From the IMG/VR virus record IMGVR_UViG_3300044618_001182, positions 1-30,346 of that record: 30,346 nt of DNA; one strand, written 5' to 3'. The DNA is from a virus. The notes under the pieces are model-generated. The model saw nothing but the letters and a program-made list of their open reading frames with translations, was not told the origin of the DNA and searched no databases. A program made the position numbers and the translations under genes. Of this stretch, positions 3,227 to 30,346 are shown one piece after another (position 1 is the stretch's first letter; each line of letters begins with the position of its first letter).

Positions 3227-3664
3227 ATGGCAAAAAGTATCAAAGGTACACGTACCGAAGAAAGTTTGAAGGAAGCATTTGCTGGTGAAAGCCAAGCCAA
3301 CCGTCGTTATTTGTATTTTGCAAACATGTGCGATATTGCTGGTGCAGGTGATGTGGCTGCAGTATTCCGTTCCACAGCCGAAGGCGAAACAGGTCACGCA
3401 CACGGTCACATGGAGTACTTGATTGAAGGTGGTGCAGGCGAGCCAGGCACAGGTATGCCAGCCAAGACAGTAACAGAAGCCTTAGAAGCTGCTATTTCAG
3501 GCGAAACACATGAGTACACTGACATGTACCCAGGTATGGCCAAGATAGCACGTGACGAAGGATTTGACGAAGTTGCTGATTGGTTTGAAACACTGGCCAA
3601 GGCAGAACGCAGTCATGCTAACAAGTTCACCAAAACATTGGAAGCACATAAAGCTACCTTGTAA
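3227..3664 (+). CDS. rbr: rubrerythrin, ferritin-like domain only
   Basis: 145 residues. The ferritin-like di-iron four-helix bundle is recognisable: [16 protein letters not shown] (E21), [10 protein letters not shown] (E54 and H57), [12 protein letters not shown] (E93/E96) and [10 protein letters not shown] (E127 and H130). These supply the ExxH pairs and extra glutamates of rubrerythrin. Classical rubrerythrins (~190 aa) add a C-terminal rubredoxin domain; it is absent here and supplied by the separate gene just upstream. The enzyme reduces hydrogen peroxide in the cytoplasm with electrons from rubredoxin. A strong AAAGGAG ribosome site precedes the ATG. The stop codon overlaps the direct repeat proposed as the pstS operator. 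Confidence 0.9.
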
Positions 3665-3733: not shown

Positions 3734-4741
3734 TTGAAACACTTATTTCTAGCAGTAATCGCCGCATTTACACTCACAGCCGAAGCCGCAGATATTACCG
3801 GCGCAGGTGCTACATTTCCATATCCAATTTACGCCAAGTGGGCCGAGGATTATGCCAAACTATCAGGAAACCGATTAAACTATCAAAGCATTGGTAGCTC
3901 AGGAGGCATTAAACAAATCAAAGCCAAGACTGTAGACTTTGGTGCTACAGATGCTCCGTTGTCAGGTGACGACCTGGCTAAGTCAGGTTTGGTACAGTTT
4001 CCAGCAGTGCTGGGTGGCGTAGTTCCTGTAATAAACTTGGACGGTGTTAAACCAGGCGAACTACAAGTTACTAGTGATGTATTAGCAGACATTTATTTAG
4101 GCAACATTACTAAATGGAATGATGTCCGGATTGCTAAACTTAATCCAGGTAAGAAGTTACCCGACACAGATATCACAGTTGTACATCGTGCTGACGGTTC
4201 AGGTACAACATTTATCTTTACTGACTACTTGAATGAAGTCAGTAAAGAATGGTCTGCCAAGGTAGGCAAAGGTGCTGCAGTTAAATGGCCAGCCAAGAGT
4301 AGTGTAGGAGGCAAAGGTAACGAAGGAGTTGCGGCCAATGTAACTCGAGTAAAGGGCGCAATTGGCTATGTTGAATATGCCTATGCCAAGAAAAACAAAA
4401 TTGCACACCTCAAGTTACAAAATCGCGATGGCAAATTCGTAGATCCTGATGACACCACTTTTGCATCAGCTGCCGCAGGCGCTGATTGGTTTAGTGTTCC
4501 TGGTATGGGTATTAGTCTTGTGAATCAAAAGGGCGCCAGTGCTTGGCCCATCACTGGTGCTAGTTTTGTTTTGGTCTACAAGGATCCAGCAAACCCAGCG
4601 GCCACACAAGAAGTTCTAAAGTTCTTTGACTACGCATTTACCTATGGTGCTAAGCCAGCAGAGAGTCTTGACTATGTTCCGCTACCAAAGGCCCTGACAG
4701 ATCGAATTAGAACACAAGTTTGGTCAACCGTCAAGAAGTAA
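3734..4741 (+). CDS. pstS: PstS periplasmic phosphate-binding protein
   Basis: 335 residues with a signal peptide (MKHLFLAVIAAFTLTAEAA, cleavage likely before DITGAG). Family motifs follow in order: GAGATFPYPIYAKW, SIGSSGGIKQI, DFGATDAPL and HRADGSGTTFIFTDYL, which form the phosphate-binding cleft; the length is normal for PstS. It captures phosphate in the periplasm and delivers it to the host PstCAB transporter; no transporter genes are seen here, as in other phages carrying pstS. The start is TTG at 3734, preceded by AAGGGAG. Upstream are a 7-4-7 direct repeat and an inverted repeat covering the ribosome site; downstream is a strong terminator. It belongs with the plcP and agt genes as a phosphate-starvation set. 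Confidence 0.95.
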   Translation: MKHLFLAVIAAFTLTAEAADITGAGATFPYPIYAKWAEDYAKLSGNRLNYQSIGSSGGIKQIKAKTVDFGATDAPLSGDDLAKSGLVQFPAVLGGVVPVINLDGVKPGELQVTSDVLADIYLGNITKWNDVRIAKLNPGKKLPDTDITVVHRADGSGTTFIFTDYLNEVSKEWSAKVGKGAAVKWPAKSSVGGKGNEGVAANVTRVKGAIGYVEYAYAKKNKIAHLKLQNRDGKFVDPDDTTFASAAAGADWFSVPGMGISLVNQKGASAWPITGASFVLVYKDPANPAATQEVLKFFDYAFTYGAKPAESLDYVPLPKALTDRIRTQVWSTVKK

Positions 4742-6000: not shown

Positions 6001-6996
6001 ATGCCAAAAACAATCCTTGTAATCACAGACAATGTCCGCGATCAAGTCAATGGAGTGGTCACAACTTTCAAAAACTTGGAAGATCATGCTGGCCGTAACG
6101 GGTATCGTGTTGTTTATTGTGATCCCGGGCAGTTCCCTAATTGTGCTTGCCCTGGTTATCCTGAAGTTCGCCTGTGCTGGCCGCATGGTATCAGTAAGAA
6201 AATTAAGGCGATACAGCCGGATTATATTCACATCGCTACAGAAGGTCCGGTAGGCTTGTTTGCCCGTTGGTGGTGTGAGCGTAATAAGATACCTTATAAC
6301 ACCAGTTATCATACCAAGTTTCCTGAATTCCTAAACAAGTTGTATGGCATTCCTGTTACCTGGACCTATTGGTATATGCGTTGGTTCCACCGTCACAGTG
6401 AGCGTGTGCTGGTTACTACAGAAAGTATGCGTAAAGATTTAGACAGTCGTGGATTTAAGAATCTTGTGGTATGGACTCGCGGAGCCGATCGTACAATTCA
6501 ACCACAAGTTACTCGAAGCACTTATCGCACTCGTCCAAGATTATTATCAGTGGGTCGCGTGTCAAAAGAAAAAGGACTAGACGATTTGATTCAGTTCCAG
6601 GAAGACTATGATTTGATCATAGTTGGTGATGGCCCGTATCGTACCGAGTTAGAACGTAAGTTGCCTAATGCCAAGTTCTTAGGATACCTACATGGTCAAG
6701 AACTAGTGGATCAATATGCTCTGGCCGATGTGTTTGTATTTCCGTCTGTAACAGATACCTTTGGTGTAGTTATCATTGAAGCGTTAGCACAAGGTTGCCC
6801 GGTGGCAGCCTATCCGGTGGCAGGACCCATTGACATTATCAAAAACGGTGTTACTGGATACCTAGACAACAACCTAGCACAATCGGTTCGCAATTGTTTG
6901 GCATTAAACAACGATCGGATCAAACAAGCCAGCCAAAAATGGACCTGGGCTGAATGCTGGCGTATATTCAAAAAGAACCTAGTATCTGTTGTGTAA
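6001..6996 (+). CDS. agt: GT4 glycosyltransferase, Agt-like (glycolipid synthesis)
   Basis: 331 residues with a GT-B architecture. The acceptor half begins ITDNVRDQVNGVVTTFKNLE, the entry loop found in diacylglycerol-type GT4 enzymes such as SqdX/Agt, and includes SYHTKFPEF. The donor half has LLSVGRVSKEKGLDDL (about 181-196), IIVGDGPYRTELE and the GT4 sugar-nucleotide signature TDTFGVVIIEALAQG (D252-x7-E260). It likely transfers a sugar or uronic acid from a nucleotide sugar to diacylglycerol left by PlcP, giving phosphorus-free glycolipid. It sits 84 bp after plcP on the same strand. The ribosome site is weak. The donor sugar cannot be told; a role in surface glycan synthesis is the main alternative. 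Confidence 0.78.
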   Translation: MPKTILVITDNVRDQVNGVVTTFKNLEDHAGRNGYRVVYCDPGQFPNCACPGYPEVRLCWPHGISKKIKAIQPDYIHIATEGPVGLFARWWCERNKIPYNTSYHTKFPEFLNKLYGIPVTWTYWYMRWFHRHSERVLVTTESMRKDLDSRGFKNLVVWTRGADRTIQPQVTRSTYRTRPRLLSVGRVSKEKGLDDLIQFQEDYDLIIVGDGPYRTELERKLPNAKFLGYLHGQELVDQYALADVFVFPSVTDTFGVVIIEALAQGCPVAAYPVAGPIDIIKNGVTGYLDNNLAQSVRNCLALNNDRIKQASQKWTWAECWRIFKKNLVSVV

Positions 6997-9346: not shown

Positions 9347-9711
9347 ATCCAGTCGTTGGAGCAGTACCTCCTACCTATAGCAATGTAACTATCACTAGTG
9401 CAGGTGCAACTATTGCCCCAATCTATACCACAGGTGCCGGTTACAATGCTGTTGAAGCCACTTGGTCTGCGGCTAATCGGTTAAGCGGCAAAATTTATCT
9501 TGAGGGCGACAACGCTGATATCGATATCAATGGTAAAAGTTTAGTAGACACATTACAAGCATTAGAAGAACGCTTAAATATTTTAGTACCCAACACTCAA
9601 CTTGAAAAAGAATGGGAAGAATTAAAGAAATTAGGTAACAAATATCGAGCGTTAGAGGCAGAGCTTACGGAAAAGGTCAACATGTGGCAAGCCTTACAAA
9701 AAACTTCATGA
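9310..9711 (+). CDS. conserved phage protein, possible virion component
   Basis: 133 residues. The first half is beta-rich and Thr/Ala-rich (NVTITSAGATIAPIYTTGAG). The middle has GKIYLEGDNADIDINGKSLV, and the C-terminal half is a coiled-coil-like helix (LQALEERLNIL, then LEKEWEELKKLGNKYRALEA). This mix suits a small structural or assembly protein and recalls conserved cyanophage proteins of unknown role. The stop overlaps the radical SAM start (ATGA). Confidence 0.7.
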   Translation: MDATKEKDIITLNPVVGAVPPTYSNVTITSAGATIAPIYTTGAGYNAVEATWSAANRLSGKIYLEGDNADIDINGKSLVDTLQALEERLNILVPNTQLEKEWEELKKLGNKYRALEAELTEKVNMWQALQKTS

Positions 9712-11093
9712 CTACCTGGCAAGAGTTTTATACCGAAATACGAGATCCAAGTTGGCCCGAGTGTGATAAAGAATTAGAATTTAATCAACTACCCGACTAT
9801 GTTCAACGTGAATGCATTGATGTGTTTGGGTACATTCCAGGACAATTTCTCAAAACATCTAAATTAAAAAATCGAGTCTTTCCAATACAAACAAATACCG
9901 CTTGCCAACTCAAATGGAACTGGAGTACTATATTTTTAACCACAGAAGAAACAGCCAGTTGCCATAGAACTAATCATCACAAATTTGATACCGATGTATT
10001 TGATTTTCATAATACTCCTAACAAATTAAATGATCGACAAAGAATGTTACAAGGTGAATGGCCCAAAAAAGGTTGTGACTATTGTAAAAATATAGAAGTG
10101 GCCGGGGGACAAAGTGATCGTATGACTAATTTAGATTTTCCTGGCATACATGCGCCACCAGAATTAACTCAAAATCCAACAGAGATACAAGTTACTCCTA
10201 GAATTTTAGAAGTTTATTTTGACAATACTTGTAATTTAAAATGTTTATATTGCGGCCCACATTTTAGTAGTCTATGGAATGCCGAAAATGTAAAATTTGG
10301 ACAGATGGCATTTAATAAAAGTTCAAATATAGAATTGAATAAACAAAAGATTTTTGATTGGATTAAAATAAATGGACATCAACTTACTGTGTTTAACATA
10401 CTAGGTGGTGAGCCATTATACCAACGTGAATTAGAACAATGTCTGGATATATTTGACCAACATCCGGCACCTGAACTTAAATTACAAATTTTTACCAATC
10501 TTGACTGTAAATTGTCGCATTTGCAAAAAATAGTAAAAAGAGTTGAGCAGTTAATTGATCAGGATAAATTGAGAGAATTTGAAATTACTGCTAGTCTAGA
10601 CTGCTGGGGAGCACCACAAGAATATGTTAGGTACCCACTGGATTTAAAAAATTGGGAAAAGAATTTTGAATATTTGGTAACTCAAGGCTGGATAAATTTA
10701 ATTATAAGCTCAACCGTAACTCCGTTAACCATAAAAACATTGCCCGAGCTACTTGAAAAAATACAATTTTGGAATCAAACTCGACGAGTTTACCACTATC
10801 AAAATAGTGTAAATGATCCTAGTTATATGTTTATAGATATTTTTGGTGATATATTTGTTAAAGATTTTAAAAAATCCTTATCTCTTAAACCAGATAACAC
10901 TCCGGAAGAAAAGTCTAGCAAACAGTATCTAAAGGGCATAGCAACACAATCTGCCAGTAGAGGTCCTAATATTCCGGAAATAACCAAGTTATTTAATTTT
11001 TTAAATCAAATGGACCAACGTCGAAATACCAACTGGCAACTAACATTTCCGTGGCTTAAAGACGAGTTTGATCGATATACGTTGACACCTTAA
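9708..11093 (+). CDS. radical SAM protein with N-terminal auxiliary cysteines
   Basis: 461 residues from ATG 9708, overlapping the previous stop. The radical SAM [4Fe-4S] motif CxxxCxxC is CNLKCLYC (C175, C179, C182), followed by the GGEPLY glycine motif. Upstream, C66, C85, C123 and C126 (the last two in KKGCDYCKNIEVAGG) look like ligands for a second cluster, as in twitch/SPASM proteins but placed before the core rather than after it. Such proteins usually modify peptides or proteins; the substrate here is unknown and no precursor peptide is obvious. The gene is more AT-rich than its neighbours (many TTT, AAA and TTA codons), which may indicate separate acquisition. A consensus promoter overlaps its end. 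Confidence 0.85.
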   Translation: MTTWQEFYTEIRDPSWPECDKELEFNQLPDYVQRECIDVFGYIPGQFLKTSKLKNRVFPIQTNTACQLKWNWSTIFLTTEETASCHRTNHHKFDTDVFDFHNTPNKLNDRQRMLQGEWPKKGCDYCKNIEVAGGQSDRMTNLDFPGIHAPPELTQNPTEIQVTPRILEVYFDNTCNLKCLYCGPHFSSLWNAENVKFGQMAFNKSSNIELNKQKIFDWIKINGHQLTVFNILGGEPLYQRELEQCLDIFDQHPAPELKLQIFTNLDCKLSHLQKIVKRVEQLIDQDKLREFEITASLDCWGAPQEYVRYPLDLKNWEKNFEYLVTQGWINLIISSTVTPLTIKTLPELLEKIQFWNQTRRVYHYQNSVNDPSYMFIDIFGDIFVKDFKKSLSLKPDNTPEEKSSKQYLKGIATQSASRGPNIPEITKLFNFLNQMDQRRNTNWQLTFPWLKDEFDRYTLTP

Positions 11094-12358: not shown

Positions 12359-13117
12359 TTGAAGATCGACAACTTTGTAGTACTTGATTCTATATATGGC
12401 AAGTTCATAGTGGCTCGGACCTGTACATTTCAGGCCGAGGCCCTGGTCAAGACTGGGCACACTCACATTGAAGAAGAACTTGCTAATATTTTTGCTATCA
12501 TAGACACCCTGCCCGATGATTGCGTTGTAGTAGATGGTGGAGCTAATATTGGATTCTTTACAGTTCCTGTGGCGCAACGAATCAAACAACGAGGTGGCCG
12601 TGTTGTTAGTTTCGAACCACAACGACAATTGTTTAATGCCCTGAGTGGTAGTTTAGCACTCAACGGCCTGGACAATGTATTCTTACATAACATGGGCCTA
12701 GGTGATGGTCGACAATCACAGGCATACCTTCCTGCGGTGGATTACAGTCAGCCCAGCGACTTTGGTACAGTAAGTTTATCTGTAGACGATACGTTTGAAG
12801 AACACTACTGGATGCGTACTCGTAGTGTTGACATTGACAGCGTCGATAGCATGATGCTGCCAAGATTAGACTTTATTAAATTAGACGTCGAAGGATTTGA
12901 AATTCCAACACTTGTAGGTGCTCTCAAAGCTATCAAAAAGTACCGACCTTACATTTGGGTAGAATACTTTATTACAGGCGCCAAAGAAATTAAACAAGCA
13001 CTAAACTCAATCACGGACTATTCCTACTATATTGTAGACTACCAAAATATGTTGTGCATACCCAACGAAAGATTGGGCATTATAAACATGACCAACTGCC
13101 CGACTTTTGATGATTGA
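12359..13117 (+). CDS. FkbM-family methyltransferase
   Basis: 252 residues from a TTG placed directly after the upstream stop; no ATG is available before the conserved core. AdoMet motif I is VVVDGGANIGFFTVPVAQ (about 57-74), followed by VVSFEPQ (motif II acidic residue) and IKLDVEGFEIPTLVGA, the FkbM signature (D-V-E-G-x-E). FkbM enzymes O-methylate sugars or small molecules, so in a phage the likely targets are glycans on the host surface or virion; this is inference. No clear ribosome site. Confidence 0.82.
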   Translation: MKIDNFVVLDSIYGKFIVARTCTFQAEALVKTGHTHIEEELANIFAIIDTLPDDCVVVDGGANIGFFTVPVAQRIKQRGGRVVSFEPQRQLFNALSGSLALNGLDNVFLHNMGLGDGRQSQAYLPAVDYSQPSDFGTVSLSVDDTFEEHYWMRTRSVDIDSVDSMMLPRLDFIKLDVEGFEIPTLVGALKAIKKYRPYIWVEYFITGAKEIKQALNSITDYSYYIVDYQNMLCIPNERLGIINMTNCPTFDD

Positions 13118-13976: not shown

Positions 13977-14549
13977 ATGACTAATAACATTCGTGAAATT
14001 ATTGATCTAGTAGAAGCCACAACTCGCCCGGCCAAGCTGGAAACCACTCCTTTGCCCTACACTCATAAGGCCTTAGAACCCGTCATGAGTTCAGCTTCAA
14101 TTGAATATCATTATGAGCATTTGGCCAAAGGCTATGCCAAACGCTACAATGCCGACACTAGCAATATGGGCGGTAACTACACAAAAGATTTCAACCGCGC
14201 AGGATCGTTTTTACATAACAAATTCTTTCCACAATTACAAGCACCCAAAGGCGCTAACCGCCCAAAGGGTGCGGTACTTGAACTAATTGAAACTAACTTC
14301 AAAACCTATGAAGACTTTAAAGCAGAATTTAAAAAGGTGGCCATGGCCATCCAGGGATCGGGCTGGGTATATCTTAGCACATCGGGCACGATTAAAACCA
14401 TCCCAAATCATCAAGTTAGAACAGATATCTGTTTACTTGTTGACTGGTGGGAACATGTCTGGGCTTTAGATTATCAGTATGACAAGGAAAAATACCTAGA
14501 TAACATCTGGAAAATTATTAACTGGAACGTTTGTAACGAACGTCTTTAA
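13977..14549 (+). CDS. sod: Fe/Mn-type superoxide dismutase
   Basis: 190 residues, the normal length for cytoplasmic SOD. Family landmarks are LPYTHKALEPVMSSASIEYH, AGSFLHNKFF, GSGWVYLS and LLVDWWEHVWALDY. By alignment from memory with E. coli SodB/SodA, the metal ligands are H45, H80, D156 and H160, and the gateway Tyr is Y53; all are kept. The Fe-SOD Gln before the second His is a Gly (G76), as in Mn-SODs, and the Mn-SOD Gln position (PNQ) reads PNH, so metal preference is uncertain. The enzyme converts superoxide to peroxide, which the rubrerythrin encoded upstream could remove. It lies between infA and erpA. Confidence 0.92.
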   Translation: MTNNIREIIDLVEATTRPAKLETTPLPYTHKALEPVMSSASIEYHYEHLAKGYAKRYNADTSNMGGNYTKDFNRAGSFLHNKFFPQLQAPKGANRPKGAVLELIETNFKTYEDFKAEFKKVAMAIQGSGWVYLSTSGTIKTIPNHQVRTDICLLVDWWEHVWALDYQYDKEKYLDNIWKIINWNVCNERL

Positions 14550-14558
14550 AGGAAATAT

Positions 14559-14885
14559 ATGATCACAATAACCGACGCAGCAGTGACAAAAATCCGCGAT
14601 ATCGTCACTGAAGAAAACAACCCTAAACTGAAACTCCGTGTATTTGTTCAAGGAGGTGGATGTAGTGGCATGCAATATGGTTTTACCTTGGATGAAGAGC
14701 AAAACGAGGATGATTGGGACCTGGATATTTCAGGTGTTAAAATCCTGGTAGATAGTACGAGTGGCGGGTACCTGCAAGGGGCAGAAGTAGACTACAAAGA
14801 AGATCAGTACGGTGCTACATTTAGTATTAAAAATCCAACAGCCAAAACCACCTGTGGTTGCGGTAGTAGTTTTAGCCCAGAGTAA
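14559..14885 (+). CDS. erpA: ErpA/IscA A-type iron-sulfur carrier
   Basis: 108 residues. The three conserved cysteines are present: [14 protein letters not shown] (C35) and TTCGCGSSF (C99, C101). The overall HesB/IscA pattern ([29 protein letters not shown]) is complete and closest to ErpA. It carries Fe-S clusters from scaffold to client proteins in the cytoplasm. AAAGGA precedes the ATG. Clients in this window could be the two radical SAM proteins; that, and protection of host Fe-S proteins alongside SOD, is inference. Confidence 0.92.
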
Positions 14886-20470: not shown

Positions 20471-20872
20471 ATGATCGAAGTAAAATTAGCATTTGCACCA
20501 CATCGTATCCCTAGAGAAAAATTACGAGCTCTTAAAAAAGATGTACTAGTATCAGACATGGAGTTTGATACCCGCATTACACAAAGTGGGTTAATTTTGC
20601 CCAACGATAATGGTACTAGTTTGGGCATTCGTCCTCGCTGGGGCCGTGTGTATGCCGTGGGCAAAGATCAGCAAGATGTTCGAGTTGGGCAATGGATATG
20701 TGTGGCGCACGGTCGTTGGACTCGAGGTGTAGACATTGAAGATGGGGAAAGCATTACCAAACGTACTATTCGTAAAATTGATCCTGAGGATATTTTATTG
20801 GTAAGTGACAGTGAAACACGCCCACAAGACGACACCATGAGTGATGCAGTACATATTCAAAAACAGTCCTGA
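20471..20872 (+). CDS. GroES/gp31-like co-chaperonin
   Basis: 133 residues. The pattern KDVLVSDMEFDTRITQSGLI, then LPN, GRVYAVGKDQQDVRVGQWIC and DPEDILLVSD follows the GroES order (DRVLV, SGIIIP, GKVVAVG, VKVGDxVL, DDILAV). The mobile-loop region falls around residues 32-50. T4 gp31 replaces GroES with host GroEL for folding the major capsid protein, and this protein is likely the counterpart. AAAGGA precedes the ATG. The C-terminal ~20 residues are an acidic extension. The fold assignment is good; use with the host chaperonin is inferred. Confidence 0.8.
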   Translation: MIEVKLAFAPHRIPREKLRALKKDVLVSDMEFDTRITQSGLILPNDNGTSLGIRPRWGRVYAVGKDQQDVRVGQWICVAHGRWTRGVDIEDGESITKRTIRKIDPEDILLVSDSETRPQDDTMSDAVHIQKQS

Positions 20873-21181: not shown

Positions 21182-22098
21182 AAGAACTTTGGGTAGAAAA
21201 ATATCGTCCAAACACCGTAGATGGATATGTATTTGTAGATCAAGCACAACGTGATCAAGTTATGTCGTGGATCCGAGACGGTAGCATTCCACACCTATTA
21301 TTCAGCGGAGGTCCCGGAACCGGTAAAACGACCTTGGCAAAAATGTTAATAAACGAATTAAAAATTGACGAGTACGATGTTATGTTTGCTAATGGTAGTA
21401 AAGAAGCTCGCAAAGTCGAGTGGGTAGACAAGCTAATTAGCTTTTGTCAAACCATGCCATTCAGTAAGTTCAAGGTTGTACTAATTGACGAAGCCGATTA
21501 TATGAATCCAAATAGTGTTCAACCAGCCTTACGTAATCTCATGGAAGACTATAGTCATAGTGTAAGATTTATTTTAACTTGCAACTATCCTAATAAAATA
21601 TTACCACCAATACATAGTCGTTGTCAACAAATACACATTCCTAAAACCGACCATACTGAATTTACAGCTCGTGTAGCCACGGTATTGGTTACAGAAAATA
21701 TAGAGTTTGATATTGACACGTTAGATACCTATGTCAAAGCCACTTATCCTGATTTACGCAAATGCTTAAATCTTGTACAGCAAAATAGCACTGGTGGTAC
21801 TCTTGCAGCACCAGGTGCTACAGACAAATCAGTTGGCGATTGGAAGCTCGACGCGGTACAGTTGTTCAAACAGGGAAAACTTCGTGAAGGACGAACCTTG
21901 ATATGTCAACAGAGTACTCCTGAGGAAGCCGAAGATATATTTCGTTGGATGTACGATAACTTAGATTTATGGTCTAAAGATGTGGCGCGACAGGATCAAG
22001 CAATTATTATCATACGCAATGGCATGGCCAATATGCCGCTGGTGGCCGACCAAGAAATTAATCTAAGTGCAACAATATCAGAATTAACTAATTTATAA
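21178..22098 (+). CDS. 44: sliding-clamp loader ATPase, T4 gp44-like
   Basis: 306 residues from ATG 21178. The AAA+ features are complete: opening KELWVEKYRPNTVDGYV, Walker A GGPGTGKTT (44-52), Walker B VVLIDEAD (100-107), sensor 1 TCNYPNKI, and the SRC arginine finger (147-149). The C-terminal collar domain follows. With gp62 it loads the trimeric clamp onto primer-template DNA for the phage polymerase; no gp62-like gene is evident next door, where a radical SAM gene sits instead. The start overlaps the upstream stop and the end overlaps the next start by one base. Confidence 0.93.
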   Translation: MKELWVEKYRPNTVDGYVFVDQAQRDQVMSWIRDGSIPHLLFSGGPGTGKTTLAKMLINELKIDEYDVMFANGSKEARKVEWVDKLISFCQTMPFSKFKVVLIDEADYMNPNSVQPALRNLMEDYSHSVRFILTCNYPNKILPPIHSRCQQIHIPKTDHTEFTARVATVLVTENIEFDIDTLDTYVKATYPDLRKCLNLVQQNSTGGTLAAPGATDKSVGDWKLDAVQLFKQGKLREGRTLICQQSTPEEAEDIFRWMYDNLDLWSKDVARQDQAIIIIRNGMANMPLVADQEINLSATISELTNL

Positions 22099-23228
22099 TG
22101 CCGTCATTTGATGTTCTTGAGCCAGCAATAGATCCTAATAATCGTATTAGTTTCCTATTAGACTGGGAATTAACTATGAAGTGTAATTTGGATTGTAGCT
22201 ATTGTCTACAAGAACTACACGGTGGACATGATAATTCAACAAAACATCCGCCACTTGCCGAATGTTTAAAAACTCTTAATTTTATGTTTGAGTATGTTGA
22301 CCAATACATGAAATATAAACCTAAGGGATTAAAAACTGTAATATTAAATATCTACGGCGGAGAATCTCTATATCATCCAGATATTGTTAAAATATTAAGT
22401 GAAGTACGTAATCAATATTATCCCTACAAAGATCGGTGGCAGTTGACTGTAACTACTACTACCAATGCGATTATTTCTTCTAAAAAATTACTCAATATTA
22501 TGCCGTACATTGATGAATTTACCACTAGCTATCATACTGAAACTACTGTAAAACAAAAACAACAATTCAAAGATAACCTGTTGACTATACAGGCCGCTGG
22601 AATTCGATTAAAATGCATCGTATTAATGTATGATATAGAAGAATATTTTGCTGACGCTGAACTGATGATTGAATGGCTGGCCGATAATAATATTAAATTA
22701 TTGCCTAGACAACTTGATGATTTAACTAGTAAAAGAAATAATTATAATCAAAAGCAAGTACAATGGTTTAATAACTTGCATCAATCTAAAACCTATGGCA
22801 CTTCTGATAAAATTACAGCCGATAATGAAATAAAACTTAACTTGAGTGATACTGGCAGAGCTTGCTGTGGTGGACGACAAACTTGTCAGGATCAAAATTA
22901 TCAAGAGCGAAAGTTCTATGTAATGGATAATAAATTCACTGGGTGGTACTGTAGTGTTAACTGGTTTTTTTTATATATCAAGCAAGTCAACGGAGAAGTA
23001 TATGTTAACAAAGATTGTAAAATGAATTTTAACGGTGAAATTGGGCCTATTGGCAATCTTTCTAACACCTCTGAGATATTGAATACCTTAGTCGAACAAC
23101 TTGAAACTAAAACGTTATCGGTAATACAATGTAAAAAACCAACTTGTTATTGTGGCCTCTGCGCCCCCAAGGCCCGAGACATAACAACGTATAATCAAAT
23201 AATTACCAAATACCAAAAAGACTACTGA
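22098..23228 (+). CDS. radical SAM protein, SPASM-like C-terminus
   Basis: 376 residues. The radical SAM motif is MKCNLDCSYCLQE (C29, C33, C36), with NIYGGESLYHP as the glycine motif. The C-terminal third has many Cys: GRACCGGRQTC, WYCSVNW, KDCKMNF, QCKKPTCYCGLC. These look like ligands for one or two auxiliary clusters, as in SPASM/twitch proteins that modify peptides or proteins. It starts on the last base of the clamp-loader stop and ends on the first base of the next gene, so it is embedded in a replication-type operon. Codons are AT-rich like the other radical SAM gene. Substrate unknown. Confidence 0.85.
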   Translation: MPSFDVLEPAIDPNNRISFLLDWELTMKCNLDCSYCLQELHGGHDNSTKHPPLAECLKTLNFMFEYVDQYMKYKPKGLKTVILNIYGGESLYHPDIVKILSEVRNQYYPYKDRWQLTVTTTTNAIISSKKLLNIMPYIDEFTTSYHTETTVKQKQQFKDNLLTIQAAGIRLKCIVLMYDIEEYFADAELMIEWLADNNIKLLPRQLDDLTSKRNNYNQKQVQWFNNLHQSKTYGTSDKITADNEIKLNLSDTGRACCGGRQTCQDQNYQERKFYVMDNKFTGWYCSVNWFFLYIKQVNGEVYVNKDCKMNFNGEIGPIGNLSNTSEILNTLVEQLETKTLSVIQCKKPTCYCGLCAPKARDITTYNQIITKYQKDY

Positions 23229-25067: not shown

Positions 25068-25649
25068 ATGAGCGACAAATTCGACCAACCCATATTTAAA
25101 GACGGTTCTGACTACTGGCAAGTAGCCGACAATATTAAGAACATTTATATGTCAGAGGGGTCATTAATGACCCTGTTGGATTTTGAGCGTGTATTAGATG
25201 AGCTAGATTTATATGCTTTTAAAAATTGGATCATTGGTGAACTTGTGCAGGGTCCGGTTATTAACAAATATACAGTAAGTTGCATATTCATGTGGCCAGA
25301 AAAACTCATGCCAGACCCACGCGGTGGACGTAGATTATTGCCATTTGACTGTAAGGTCAAATACAAAAAAATTACCATGGAAATACCAATGAAAATTAGT
25401 AACCCTAGTGATTACAAACTCGGTACGCACAAAGCAAAAATTATGGAGCAACGAGTATGGTTAGTAGAAATTACCATGCCCAAGGCCTTGATGAGTGATA
25501 TCCGTACCGGTTCAGTAGAATTAGAAGATGAAGATATTGACCTAGCCGACTTAGATGCAGCTTACGAGCAAGATCTAGATCAAGAAGAATACCAAAGTGA
25601 ACAGATTGCCGACAATGCCCAACAATCCCTTGAACAACCCGTTATTTGA
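25068..25649 (+). CDS. conserved T4-like phage protein
   Basis: 193 residues. The conserved body runs from WQVADNIKNIYMSEGSLMTL through FERVLDELDLYAFKNWIIGE and MWPEKLMPDPRGGRRLLPFD to VWLVEITMPKALMSDIRTGS, ending in an acidic tail. This is a widespread T4-like marine phage protein in my recollection; its function is unknown, and its size and late-type promoter suggest virion assembly. No ribosome site. It overlaps the next gene by 35 bp in another frame. Confidence 0.78.
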   Translation: MSDKFDQPIFKDGSDYWQVADNIKNIYMSEGSLMTLLDFERVLDELDLYAFKNWIIGELVQGPVINKYTVSCIFMWPEKLMPDPRGGRRLLPFDCKVKYKKITMEIPMKISNPSDYKLGTHKAKIMEQRVWLVEITMPKALMSDIRTGSVELEDEDIDLADLDAAYEQDLDQEEYQSEQIADNAQQSLEQPVI

Positions 25650-26205: not shown

Positions 26206-26922
26206 ATGGATATTAAAAGTTTTGGTTGCAGTTTTATATTTGGTAGCGAACTCTCCGATGATGGCCTCAGTAATTTGTATACTACCGGCAGTCGGCTTAC
26301 CTGGCCGGCACTTCTCGCTAAACATCTTGGATATAATTACCAAACCTACGCCAGGCCTGGTAGCGGCAATTTACAAATTATGGAACAGATATTAAATCAG
26401 GCAGTTAATACCGAACCGTCATTGTATATCATTGGGTGGACCTGGATTGATCGGTTTGATTATGTTAGCAAAACTGCAGATAAATGGCCGGCTGATAATG
26501 GTAAATCTGGGTCAGGCTGGGGTACTGGGTGGAAAACTATAATGCCTGCCGACGATACATCCGTAGCCAAAACTTATTATCAAGATTTACATTCTGAATA
26601 TCAAGATAAACTTAACACATTAATATCTATACGAACAGCAATTGATGTATTAAAGTCAAAAAACTTACCATTTATAATGACCTACATGGACGAGCTTATG
26701 TTTAATACTCAGTGGCATGTTAGCCCAGCAGTATTAGATTTACAAAATTATATTCGCCCGCACATGACTTGCTTTGATGGACAAAACTTTTTAGAGTGGG
26801 GTAAGAAAAAGGGTTATCCAATTAGTACCGCCACGCATCCTTTAGAGGAAGCACATCGTGCTGCCGCTGATTATATAATTAAAGTTTTTGATAAACAAAG
26901 TATAACCGCCCAAGTTCGGTAG
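26206..26922 (+). CDS. SGNH-hydrolase-like phage protein
   Basis: 238 residues. The opening MDIKSFGCSFIFGSEL places S9 in a G-C-S-F turn like block I of SGNH/GDSL hydrolases. RPGSGNLQIMEQIL may provide the oxyanion Gly/Asn, and TATHPLEEAHRAA (H211) matches the block V His, except that the usual Asp three residues earlier is a Thr (T208). The family cleaves esters of lipids or acylated sugars; phage relatives are of unknown target. No ribosome site; a TATAAT lies 5 nt upstream. Its 3' end overlaps the minus-strand methyltransferase by 44 bp. Confidence 0.68.
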   Translation: MDIKSFGCSFIFGSELSDDGLSNLYTTGSRLTWPALLAKHLGYNYQTYARPGSGNLQIMEQILNQAVNTEPSLYIIGWTWIDRFDYVSKTADKWPADNGKSGSGWGTGWKTIMPADDTSVAKTYYQDLHSEYQDKLNTLISIRTAIDVLKSKNLPFIMTYMDELMFNTQWHVSPAVLDLQNYIRPHMTCFDGQNFLEWGKKKGYPISTATHPLEEAHRAAADYIIKVFDKQSITAQVR

Positions 26923-27613
26923 GTTCTTTCTTAAACTCTAATAATTTAAGATTATACTTTTCAGCAAATTCGTTTACAACTTCAAAAGACCACGGAAAAA
27001 TATCTACATAAGGACCAGTCTTGTGCGGAAGGCCTGGATTGGCTCTTAGATAGAACTTGCCACCCGTTTGTAACAAACTAACACAGTGAGCGAAGCGTTC
27101 TTCAATTTCGTCTTTACTATTAAAGTTAATTGATCCTAGTGCAATAATATGATCGTGGCTTTCTGGCTTGACCTTGTATTCTAAAATATCAACTTCGTAG
27201 TCGGCACAATCGTTATAAGGATCAATGCCAATTAGATTAGGAATGCGTCCTTTGAATGGATGATATCCACAGCCTACATCCAATACATTTTTAGGATCTT
27301 GTTTAGAAATCTCTTCTGCTAAGGCCCACCCAGAGTGATCGTATTCGCCAGTGCGTGGTTTCCAAATTTCAGCAAAGAATCTATGTGTATATGCTTCGCT
27401 AAGTTCCGCAACAATAGATTTTACTGTGCCGATATAGTCTGATGTTAGTTGTAGCTCGTGCCAAACTGCATCCTTAAATTTCTTGTATCGAGCCGGAGTC
27501 CATGGCAATTGATCTACTACTGTATCTTGGTTGACAACGATATCTTGATATTTGGGTAAATTAAAGGCTTCTGTTAAATTTTCTGTAATCAGTTTAAAAA
27601 TTTTGGTATTCAT
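26879..27613 (-). CDS. class I SAM-dependent methyltransferase
   Basis: 244 residues. After a ~100-residue helical N-terminal part, motif I reads KNVLDVGCGYHPFKG, followed by NLIGIDPYND and DHIIALGSINFNSKDEIEER. This is a class I Rossmann methyltransferase, probably of the small-molecule or sugar type. No DNA-methyltransferase motif IV is seen. AGGAAA precedes the start on the minus strand. It is convergent with the SGNH-like gene and overlaps it by 44 bp, so simultaneous expression would produce complementary mRNA ends. Confidence 0.78.
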   Translation of the reverse strand: MNTKIFKLITENLTEAFNLPKYQDIVVNQDTVVDQLPWTPARYKKFKDAVWHELQLTSDYIGTVKSIVAELSEAYTHRFFAEIWKPRTGEYDHSGWALAEEISKQDPKNVLDVGCGYHPFKGRIPNLIGIDPYNDCADYEVDILEYKVKPESHDHIIALGSINFNSKDEIEERFAHCVSLLQTGGKFYLRANPGLPHKTGPYVDIFPWSFEVVNEFAEKYNLKLLEFKKEPTELGRLYFVYQKL

Positions 27614-27632
27614 TAAAAATTTCCTATTGGGG

Positions 27633-27639
27633 TAAATAA
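27633..27639 (+). promoter_or_regulatory. TAAATAA late-promoter-like motif before tctC
   Basis: GGTAAATAAA in the 96-bp gap between divergent genes, 70 nt before the tctC ATG. Weak evidence because the gap is AT-rich. Confidence 0.33.
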
Positions 27640-27709
27640 ATTTATAAAGAGATTAAAAATTTTACCTCTCTTTGCAATTTTCTATAACTATTTACACAAA
27701 GGACATACT

Positions 27710-28666
27710 ATGAAAAAATTATTACTAGCCATTCTTATGGTTCCAACATTGGCCATTGCCTGGGAACCAACCAAACCTATTACAGTTATCAGCCCAGTTG
27801 CACCCGGTGCTGGAAACGAAATGAGTTTTAGAGCAGTTAGTAGTATTATTGAGCGAGCCGGAAAGGCCACATTTATTGTTGAAAGTAAACCAGGTGCCGA
27901 TAATGTAATTGGTATCAACCATTTAGCCGAACAACCAGCCAACGGATATCATGCGGCAGCAGCATCATGCCAAAGTACTTTTGTAGCCAGCGACGTACAC
28001 TATAACGATATTATTAAATTTAAACCCATGGAGTTAACTTTAATCACCAACATTGGTAAGAGTCCGCTGGCGTTTGTGGCCAATATTAAAAGTCCAATCA
28101 ACACCGTACCAGATTTAATTAAAGCTGTCAAGACTCGACCAGTTAACTTTGGAACCGGCGGTGCTGGACATCAACTAGCACTGGAGTACCTGATAGATAA
28201 AACCGGTGCTGATCGTAATTTTGCACAAAATATTCCATATAAAGGACCACTGCCCGCAGTAACTGATGCTGCAGCCGGAGTGGTCGAAATGGCCATTGTC
28301 CCAACCGCAGTAGCAAATACCCTGTTGCCAACAGGTAAAATTAAAATTATAGGCATTGCTGGCGAACAAAAATTGGCGGCTTTTCCAGATACCCCATTGA
28401 TGAAAGATTATGTACCGGGCCTGAATGTTAGTGCCTGCTGGAATATTGTATTGCCCAAAGGAGCACCGCCCGATGTTGTCAAATGGTATGTTGATAATTT
28501 TGTGCCAGCCCTGCGCACACCCGAATACAAAAAATGGGCCGATGAAAATATGATCTTTATTGATCCTAACGCAATAGGTCCTGAAAAAGTTCGTAAAGAC
28601 ATGGAACAACTACGAGCACAATGGCAACCGTATGTGGCAAAGATGCCTGGACCAAGAACCAAATGA
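27710..28666 (+). CDS. tctC: TctC/Bug-family periplasmic solute receptor
   Basis: 318 residues with a classic signal peptide (MKKLLLAILMVPTLAIA). The mature part begins WEPTKPITVISPVAPGAGNE and shows Bug-family marks: ESKPGADNVIGINHLAEQPA, the NFGTGGAGHQLALEYL loop, IPYKGPLPAVTDAAAG, and PDTPLMKDYVPGLNV followed by the late LPKGAP element. These receptors bind carboxylates such as tricarboxylates, dicarboxylates or nicotinate and serve TctAB transporters; no TctAB is present, so it would plug into a host transporter. The family is hugely expanded in Burkholderiales. AAAGGA precedes the ATG. The gene end overlaps the next start (ATGA). Confidence 0.9.
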   Translation: MKKLLLAILMVPTLAIAWEPTKPITVISPVAPGAGNEMSFRAVSSIIERAGKATFIVESKPGADNVIGINHLAEQPANGYHAAAASCQSTFVASDVHYNDIIKFKPMELTLITNIGKSPLAFVANIKSPINTVPDLIKAVKTRPVNFGTGGAGHQLALEYLIDKTGADRNFAQNIPYKGPLPAVTDAAAGVVEMAIVPTAVANTLLPTGKIKIIGIAGEQKLAAFPDTPLMKDYVPGLNVSACWNIVLPKGAPPDVVKWYVDNFVPALRTPEYKKWADENMIFIDPNAIGPEKVRKDMEQLRAQWQPYVAKMPGPRTK

Positions 28667-29277
28667 AATATATTTTTATGGCCGGTGCGCCAGGTTCAAA
28701 ATGGAGTAGTGTAAGCAAGAACATTTACTTTAGTCCCAACATAGATCGTACAGATGCCAGCGCAGAACGTGAATACTATCACGATGCGCCGGGTACACTA
28801 GAACTCATGCACATGGGCGCATACTTTGATCCCGGAATGGAGTTTGGTGATTGGTTTGATAATATAGACCAATACACTAAAGCTGAATGTGAAGCAGAGT
28901 TCGACCGTCCATTTTCCGGTCAAGGTATACGCATTATTAAAAGTCATGTGTTCTGCCATCATTTAGATTTTATTAAATCTACTTGGCCAGAATGTCCCAT
29001 TGTGCTGGTACATCGAGGCGACGATGCCAGCTTAGGATGGTGGGTCAAGTGTGGACATTTTAACATTACCTATCCCACGTACAATAAGTATTATAAAGAT
29101 TTACGTCAAATGGCAGTAGAAATCAAAAGGCAAAATGCAGACATGCGGGCGCATTGGGACCATGCTAGTTTTGTGTATGACAATCGTGGCTTGTGTGATC
29201 AATTGGGTATAACACCGCCTCCAACAGAGTATTATCAAAACTATGCTGACAATAAAATAAGGGTAAAGGTATTATGA
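28663..29277 (+). CDS. sulfotransferase-like P-loop protein
   Basis: 204 residues from ATG 28663, overlapping the tctC stop. The opening YIFMAGAPGSKWSSVSKNIY has a GxPGSxWSS loop that resembles the 5'-phosphosulfate-binding loop of sulfotransferases rather than a GKT Walker A. IIKSHVFCHHLDFI (KSH) and VLVHRGDDASLGWWVKCGHF (R...S, the 3'-phosphate-binding element) support this. Such enzymes transfer sulfate from PAPS to a hydroxyl. The APS kinase two genes downstream would make PAPS. The acceptor is unknown. A kinase-like role for the P-loop is the alternative. Confidence 0.68.
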   Translation: MKYIFMAGAPGSKWSSVSKNIYFSPNIDRTDASAEREYYHDAPGTLELMHMGAYFDPGMEFGDWFDNIDQYTKAECEAEFDRPFSGQGIRIIKSHVFCHHLDFIKSTWPECPIVLVHRGDDASLGWWVKCGHFNITYPTYNKYYKDLRQMAVEIKRQNADMRAHWDHASFVYDNRGLCDQLGITPPPTEYYQNYADNKIRVKVL

Positions 29278-29945
29278 CAACAGAACAAAGCAGTTGGGAA
29301 TTAACTAAACAACACAGTGGCTATCACTTTGATAACTTTAAATTTGATCCAGATCAAGATAAAGTTACTACATTAGGTAACATTGATCCTTTTTGGAAAG
29401 AAGAACTCGATACTATTATAGAGTTAGCTAAACCCAAGACTTGGCGTACTCGTGGTAAACAAGGCAACGAACGCCCAGGCGAAGAATATGATCAAGAAGA
29501 CTACGACCTGGAGCAGTTTGGTTACGGTAAGGATCATATTGTAAGTGACCTAACTTGGGAAGTGCCCAAAACATTTGATAAAATTGCTGTGTGGTTTGGC
29601 ATGGACAACTGCAAAATGCGCTTACATGTGCAACGGCCAGGGCAAGTATGGAATCTACACTTGGACAAGTTAGAAAAATGGCATCCTGAAGATCCTGCCA
29701 AAGTTATACGAGTCATGATTGCACTTAACGATTGGGAACCAGGACATTTCTTTAGCTACGGAAACTACATGCACTCGGGCTGGCATGCCGGCAATGTTAC
29801 CACCTTTGACTGGCGCAACTTACCACACGCCACAGCCAATGCTGGACATAGCCCTAGAATTACTCTACAAATTACCGGAGTAGTTACTGATCGCACACGT
29901 GATTTTTTACGTGTATTAAGAAGCAAATCTCCATATAAGGTTTAA
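29274..29945 (+). CDS. 2OG-Fe(II) oxygenase, aspartyl/asparaginyl hydroxylase-like
   Basis: 223 residues. The iron facial triad is visible as H129 and D131 in VWNLHLDKLEKW and H185 in NLPHATANAG, with R195 in SPRITLQITGVV as the 2-oxoglutarate carboxylate ligand. The spacing suits the double-stranded beta-helix family related to aspartyl/asparaginyl beta-hydroxylases. It would hydroxylate a protein, glycan or small molecule using 2-oxoglutarate and O2. Phages of this type often carry several such oxygenases. It overlaps the upstream gene by 4 bp and is 4 nt from the APS kinase gene. Confidence 0.82.
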   Translation: MTTEQSSWELTKQHSGYHFDNFKFDPDQDKVTTLGNIDPFWKEELDTIIELAKPKTWRTRGKQGNERPGEEYDQEDYDLEQFGYGKDHIVSDLTWEVPKTFDKIAVWFGMDNCKMRLHVQRPGQVWNLHLDKLEKWHPEDPAKVIRVMIALNDWEPGHFFSYGNYMHSGWHAGNVTTFDWRNLPHATANAGHSPRITLQITGVVTDRTRDFLRVLRSKSPYKV

Positions 29946-29949
29946 CATT

Positions 29950-30346
29950 ATGTCACAACGAATTTTAATCATGGGCTTGCCGGGCGCTGGTAAAACTACC
30001 TTGGCCGGTGCTCTTAAACGGTACTTGGAAGAACATGGAGAAATGAGTAATACTCAAATGGAAAGTTTACCTATCGGCGGATTTAATGCTCGAGTAACTT
30101 GGTTCAATGCCGACGACATTCGCCGCAAGTACAATGACTGGGACTTTAGTAACGAAGGACGTATTCGTCAAAGTATTCGTATGTTCCAATTCAGTATGGA
30201 GGCCGGTGGCGAATATGTTATATGTGATTTTGTTGCACCCTTGGTTGAAATGCGTAACAACTTCAAAGCCGATTGGACCATCTGGATGGATACTATCGAG
30301 TCTGGTCGTTTTGAAGATACTAACAAAGCGTTCATTCCGCCAGAAC
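29950..30346 (+). CDS. cysC: APS kinase-like protein (3' end outside window)
   Basis: 132 residues visible, open at the window end. Walker A is MGLPGAGKTTLAG (G9-T17). The segment WFNADDIRRKYNDWDFSNEG followed by RIRQSIRM matches the APS kinase pattern (xDGDxxRxxxNxDLGFSxxxR), and YVICDFVAP follows as in CysC (VxxxFISP). The enzyme phosphorylates adenylylsulfate to PAPS in the cytoplasm. No ATP sulfurylase is in view, so APS would come from the host. Phage members with this ADDIRRKYNDWDFS form are common in T4-like marine phages. Confidence 0.85.
   Translation, partial: MSQRILIMGLPGAGKTTLAGALKRYLEEHGEMSNTQMESLPIGGFNARVTWFNADDIRRKYNDWDFSNEGRIRQSIRMFQFSMEAGGEYVICDFVAPLVEMRNNFKADWTIWMDTIESGRFEDTNKAFIPPE

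Follow-up and report, generated by a model that had tools for sequence, protein, structure and literature searches.

The 30,346-nucleotide stretch of viral DNA analysed here (the window) encodes, at positions 27710-28666 on the plus strand, a TctC/Bug solute-binding receptor of 318 residues that falls in a phage clade of its own; nearly fixed in a jumbo-phage lineage, the gene is more than stray cargo. As the likeliest mechanism, with a probability of roughly 0.45, we propose that this phage-evolved receptor delivers an organic acid to the TctAB pair of the host during infection. The TctC/Bug protein family and the general idea of a phage-borne receptor are already known; new are an apparently undescribed phage clade, its departed signature motif and its high frequency in a jumbo-phage lineage. 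No description of a phage TctC receptor family was found in the literature searched, a scope that leaves aside subscription papers and preprints. Uncultured Caudovirales proteins annotated in UniProt as PBP2_Bug_TTT or 'Bordetella uptake protein' (A0A6J5T247, A0A6J5L7K0 and others) have the same domain, A0A6J5T247 with 49% identity to the window receptor and a TM of 0.95; these are automatic database annotations, and the same literature holds no study of the proteins.

An intact receptor of a phage clade

The open reading frame runs from an ATG at 27710, preceded by an AAAGGA ribosome-binding site, through 318 uninterrupted codons to a TGA at 28664-28666. It matches the Pfam TctC family PF03401 with 107.7 bits (E 9.9e-31; gathering score 27 bits), and eleven solved Bug/TctC sequences match it in sequence searches with E from 2e-23 to 9e-7. 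By inspection, residues 1-17 (27710-27760, plus strand) form a putative Sec signal peptide, MKKLLLAILMVPTLAIA, to be cut before W18 after an A-x-A (AIA) end; A17 and W18 are invariant in 58/58 relatives. An AlphaFold2 model built with 28 phage relatives spans both domains with a mean pLDDT of 93, in agreement with the original prediction of a full-length receptor with a signal peptide.

Compared by VIA-align, the model scores Z 37.1 against the TPA-binding protein 8hkb (rmsd 2.1, 291 residues), 36.7 against Bug27, 36.6 against both BugE and TphC, 36.4 against AdpC and 35.2 against BugD, with the next fold class at 17. The predicted fold is hence the two-domain type II periplasmic-binding fold of solved Bug proteins, and the model resembles the closed, liganded receptors; its two domains are predicted to be intact, which argues against a non-functional binding cleft. 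The closed fold is common to Bug27 (2qpq), BugD (2f5x), BugE (2dvz), TphC (7nds), AdpC (5oei) and MatC (6hke) from Bordetella, Comamonas and Rhodopseudomonas (287-294 aligned residues, Z 34.7-36.7, rmsd 1.8-2.2), as is the signal peptide, and the phage receptor lacks linked membrane genes like most Bug proteins. However, identity to these receptors is just 18-27%, and the window protein is phage-encoded and belongs to a separate clade.

A single IMG/VR scan with two query sequences found relatives with 28-63% identity on 76 viral contigs, many of them 200-524 kb long, which excludes a chance occurrence in the window; together with the window the loci form 58 groups at 95% identity. Two isolated matches from a pattern scan were without tblastn confirmation. 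A single Terminase_6C copy is present in 14 of the 25 records tested, among them all those above 300 kb, indicating that the records bearing TctC are phage genomes and not mislabelled bacteria. PF03401 is present in all 25, as expected for records chosen for TctC, and many have two or three copies. Because this first set had been chosen for the receptor, the search was repeated from the neighbouring virion structural gene (25068-25649, plus strand; phrog_12928, head and packaging, E 5.5e-29) as a marker of the lineage. The phage TctC family is carried by 43 of 58 marker loci with at least 5 kb on each side (74%). As the marker set comprises the best 80 of more than 500 matches and includes near-duplicates, this share estimates the frequency among the nearer members of the lineage. 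The original term 'cargo' understates this near-fixation.

The additional PF03401 copies (L087-L098, in G004, G007, G011, G013, G015, G017, G019, G021, G023 and G026) lie elsewhere in the genome, one or two at a time, and fall outside the core clade, several on long branches; 10/12 keep the canonical D of GGxxD. Isolate phages in GenBank yielded no member of the clade and only three matches, at 22-24% identity, from one faecal 'Bacteriophage sp.' record and two records labelled Salmonella. PHROGs holds no family for the window receptor, and the window clamp loader is nearest to those of PA5oct-like Pseudomonas jumbo phages (52%).

In quick, unrooted trees with SH-aLRT support only, the phage-clade rows lie on one side of a branch, with a support of 97 against 25 cellular rows and, for 26 phage rows, of 99 against 65 near betaproteobacterial TctCs. 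The cellular rows came from scans of species genomes, in the large samples with five candidates scored per genome, with six betaproteobacterial genomes supplying most of them. Scored against the phage profile, the best cellular sequence reaches 168 bits, and the nearest cellular relatives among those found are betaproteobacterial rather than members of unrelated phyla. The phage clade sits on a long stem and is not nested among host TctCs, against the placement from which a host had been expected to be read; the receptor is thus a poor host clue, and its use as host marker was dropped after the tree. Between the window and locus L002 (63% identity), dN is 0.27 and dS 1.9, which is near saturation, at a ratio of about 0.14, and the phage receptor is under purifying selection. 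In view of selection and marker-locus frequency, we rejected the idea that the gene is a passenger.

The altered ligand grip

In Bug receptors, two loops pincer the proximal carboxylate of the ligand, the one in domain 1 through the motif P-F-x-A-G-G-x-x-D, which is almost ubiquitous, not universal (PMC5812351), and the one in domain 2 of TphC through K177-G178-T179 (PMC8556258). By alignment, the corresponding loops of the window receptor are residues 29-41 (PVAPGAGNEMSFR; 27794-27832, plus strand), in place of the canonical PFxAGGxxD, and residues 177-182 (YKGPLP; 28238-28255, plus strand), canonically YKG[GATS]. The domain 1 loop reads P-V-A-P-G-A-G-N-E, i.e. the first P and the first G are kept, the second G is replaced by A and D by E. 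The signature is thus lacking, a departure found throughout the clade, and we file the protein as a variant of the TctC/Bug family, not as a typical member.

The differences are constant between 26 phage-clade and 65 cellular rows. Position 34 is S, A or T in 26/26 phage rows, whereas cells have G in 60/65 and S or A in 4/65; position 37 is E in 25/26 phage rows and 0/65 cellular ones, where D is present in 64/65. P180 occurs in 26/26 phage rows versus 3/65, and W259, Y260 and F264 in 24-25 of 26, versus 0/65, 3/65 and 0/65, respectively. The docking aromatic at position 30, F or Y in 53/65 cellular rows, is found in a minority of phage rows, while G33 and R41 are retained in 26/26. Judged from these alignments, both carboxylate-gripping loops are changed and fixed in the phage clade, from GGxxD to G[SA]GNE and from KG[GATS] to xGP. 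Ligand binding nevertheless looks retained: E in place of D is a conservative exchange, no phage row has lost G33 or R41, and the model resembles closed, liganded receptors. The constancy and distinctness of the grip point to a single ligand class common to the clade and held in an unusual way, and the ligand is perhaps not a plain carboxylate, as both gripping loops are off-signature and the aromatic at position 30 is mostly replaced.

Gene neighbourhood and host

The usual gene order is PhoH (minus strand), two virion proteins, a protein of unknown function, a methyltransferase (minus), TctC (plus) and then, all on the plus strand, sulfotransferase-like, 2OG-oxygenase-like and APS-kinase-like genes. 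The divergent partner of the receptor gene (26879-27613, minus strand) is SAM methyltransferase-like, judging from weak Pfam methyltransferase matches in a relative; the gene is present in 48/58 loci and directly upstream and divergent in 28/57. Downstream, a putative sulfotransferase-like P-loop protein (28663-29277, plus strand; weak Sulfotransfer_3 match in relatives, below the cut-off) overlaps with its start the stop of TctC (ATGA, 28663-28666); it is found in 44/58 loci and directly follows in 34/56. The next gene (29274-29945, plus strand; 35/58 loci) likely encodes a 2OG-Fe(II) oxygenase-like protein, with invariant H129, D131, H185 and R195 (HxD...H...R) and a model (pLDDT 81) that scores Z 10.7 to proline 3-hydroxylase and other 2OG hydroxylases. 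The last (29950-30345, plus strand; 23/58 loci), cut by the window end, is APS-kinase-like (Pfam APS_kinase 33.4 bits, cut-off 21.1). We regard the sulfotransferase and APS-kinase assignments as weak.

In relatives, e.g. at L011:7578-8414, the APS-kinase-like domain is fused to an NMNAT/cytidylyltransferase-like domain, and the fusion could serve sulfate activation or nucleotide metabolism. A role of this kinase in NAD salvage, prompted by the C-terminal domain, would fit the pyridine-binding Bug27 and Bug69 (PMC11452294), but was not adopted as the preferred reading, given the APS-kinase match of its N-terminal half and the sulfotransferase-like character of the neighbouring genes. In another branch (L051, L066, L070 and L071), ferritin-like and class I glutamine amidotransferase-like genes replace the methyltransferase upstream of TctC, and relatives such as L002 have further radical-SAM-like genes around it.

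The region between methyltransferase and TctC (27614-27709) contains GGTAAATAA, a short variable hairpin (AAAGAGA..TCTCTTT in the window) and CTATAACTATTTAC, with comparable AT-rich elements in 24 other phages (25 intergenic regions compared). TAAATA occurs in 26/58 regions upstream of TctC, versus a mean of 12.5 and a maximum of 20 in shuffled sequence, and the standard promoter hexamers TTGACA and TATAAT are not enriched there. The region may be a phage promoter or operator.

A betaproteobacterial host, as originally suggested, is supported by sequence comparison of PstS and ErpA, not by TctC. The six best PstS matches (60-71% identity) among 398 Pseudomonadota genomes all lie in one order sample (hypergeometric 2e-7, with about 33/398 genomes in the sample, a deduced figure), as do the best 17 for ErpA (4e-21), probabilities that overstate the independence of the matches because the genomes are related to each other. 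The order is called betaproteobacterial via L081 ('uncultured beta proteobacterium') and is, following GTDB, most likely Burkholderiales. ErpA, an iron-sulfur carrier (14559-14885), is part of an oxidative-stress and iron-sulfur set in the window, along with a rubrerythrin-like protein identified by inspection (3227-3664), a superoxide dismutase-like protein (13977-14549) and a weak GroES-like match (20471-20872). Two radical-SAM proteins, an FkbM methyltransferase and a glycosyltransferase are found at 9684-11093, 12359-13117, 22098-23228 and 6001-6996.

A receptor without a permease

Phage-carried nutrient receptors are best known for phosphate (PstS), and cyanophage PstS is thought to raise phosphate uptake during infection. 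The window encodes a PstS of its own (3734-4741, plus strand; PRK10918, 426 bits), with no Pst permease among the window ORFs scanned, in line with the PstS-like logic first suggested for the receptor. Similarly, neither TctA nor TctB is apparent near TctC, and TctA (PF01970) has no match in 31 related viral records of about 6.3 Mb in total, which may be fragments. Hence a complete TctABC transporter, with TctA encoded together with TctC, is not seen in these records, as anticipated for a receptor without transporter genes.

Both TctC and phage PstS, in cyanophages and in this window, are thus periplasmic receptors carried without a permease, and TctC, kept under selection, resembles auxiliary metabolic genes of the PstS kind in this respect. 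However, TctC belongs to the TTT and PstS to the ABC transporters, and TctC stands in a separate clade, distant from every host gene found, whereas the window PstS is recognisably host-derived (up to 71% identity to genomes of the betaproteobacterial order). PstS occurs in 6/31 records of the lineage, versus the 43/58 marker-found loci with TctC, and is therefore probably a much younger acquisition. A further viral TTT gene, tctA on a SUP05 viral contig (PMC4164917), encodes the membrane subunit, recognised by a domain match only, and not the receptor.

In betaproteobacteria, many Bug receptors are orphans with no membrane genes linked to them (PMC5812351). Most candidate hosts have the permease in few copies and many receptors: 11 of 13 genomes near the phage by PstS or ErpA encode 1-5 TctA and 7-94 TctC each, the exceptions being G093 (no TctA, one TctC) and G322 (neither). 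Among the six closest by PstS, five have 1-4 TctA and 7-65 TctC (e.g. 2 versus 65, 1 versus 33 and 1 versus 7), and the sixth is G093. An additional receptor could plug in without its own permease because of this excess of receptors over TctA.

We propose the following mechanism. TctC would be produced in infected cells along with the sulfotransferase-like protein encoded downstream and exported by Sec to the periplasm, where it would capture an organic acid, probably a dicarboxylate, a tricarboxylate or a closely similar compound. The ligand would then pass to TctAB, the membrane pair of the host, so that more of the compound is taken up while the phage replicates, as supposed for cyanophage PstS. 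The original idea that the receptor could redirect a host transporter is plausible. Expression during infection, the ligand, docking to host TctAB and the benefit to the phage are what we infer; the closed, liganded-type fold, the purifying selection, the marker-locus frequency, the missing TctA and the host order are in agreement with it, while the two of 13 host-like genomes without TctA are not.

That receptors of this family can act in signalling, as BctC does, also counts against docking to TctAB. Citrate-bound BctC is needed for both signalling and transport, and signalling has been put forward as a role of the many orphan receptors (PMC5812351). Ligand-bound phage TctC might accordingly act on a periplasmic sensor of the host, as BctC with BctE, and switch host expression in favour of the phage rather than support transport, and the newly fixed aromatics W259, Y260 and F264 could form a changed contact surface. 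We consider this unlikely, although it is the strongest alternative to delivery to host TctAB; a general inspection of the genes conserved around TctC showed no sensor kinase.

Somewhat less probable still is that the ligand, e.g. 2-oxoglutarate or an organosulfur acid, serves the adjacent 2OG-oxygenase-like, sulfotransferase-like and APS-kinase-like proteins as precursor or co-substrate. These genes adjoin TctC in most loci, the first overlapping it in the window, the 2OG-like fold is supported by the predicted model, and the ligands known for the family include oxoadipate and sulfolactate (PMC5812351; 5oei), but several loci are without one or all of the enzymes and two of the three assignments are weak. 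We give slightly less weight again to periplasmic exclusion or defence, in which the receptor fold would be a scaffold that blocks a competing phage or traps a host signal molecule without any role in transport. Such a use would be compatible with the remodelling and fixation of both pincer loops, and with the presence in some phages of two or three PF03401 genes, which might represent a suite of binding proteins; the features that speak for retained ligand binding count against it. Finally, a recently captured host gene drifting without function, easily acquired by chance given the great abundance of Bug genes in betaproteobacteria, is highly improbable in view of the separate clade, purifying selection, synteny and high frequency in the lineage.

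It is conceivable, if tentative, that a separate class of TTT receptor arose within jumbo phages, its ligand grip rebuilt to suit a single metabolite, either one needed by infected betaproteobacteria or one used by adjacent phage enzymes. The gene would then have persisted over long evolutionary times as part of the infection core, in some phages alongside one or two receptors of other specificity. The altered grip makes the phage receptor a direct target for ligand identification. As the phage seems to rely on this plug-in design too, the finding also bears on the open question of why Bug systems have many receptors for few membrane partners. The frequency of an organic-acid-type receptor family across a wide jumbo-phage lineage suggests that the supply, or the sensing, of organic acids is limiting in the infections of these phages.
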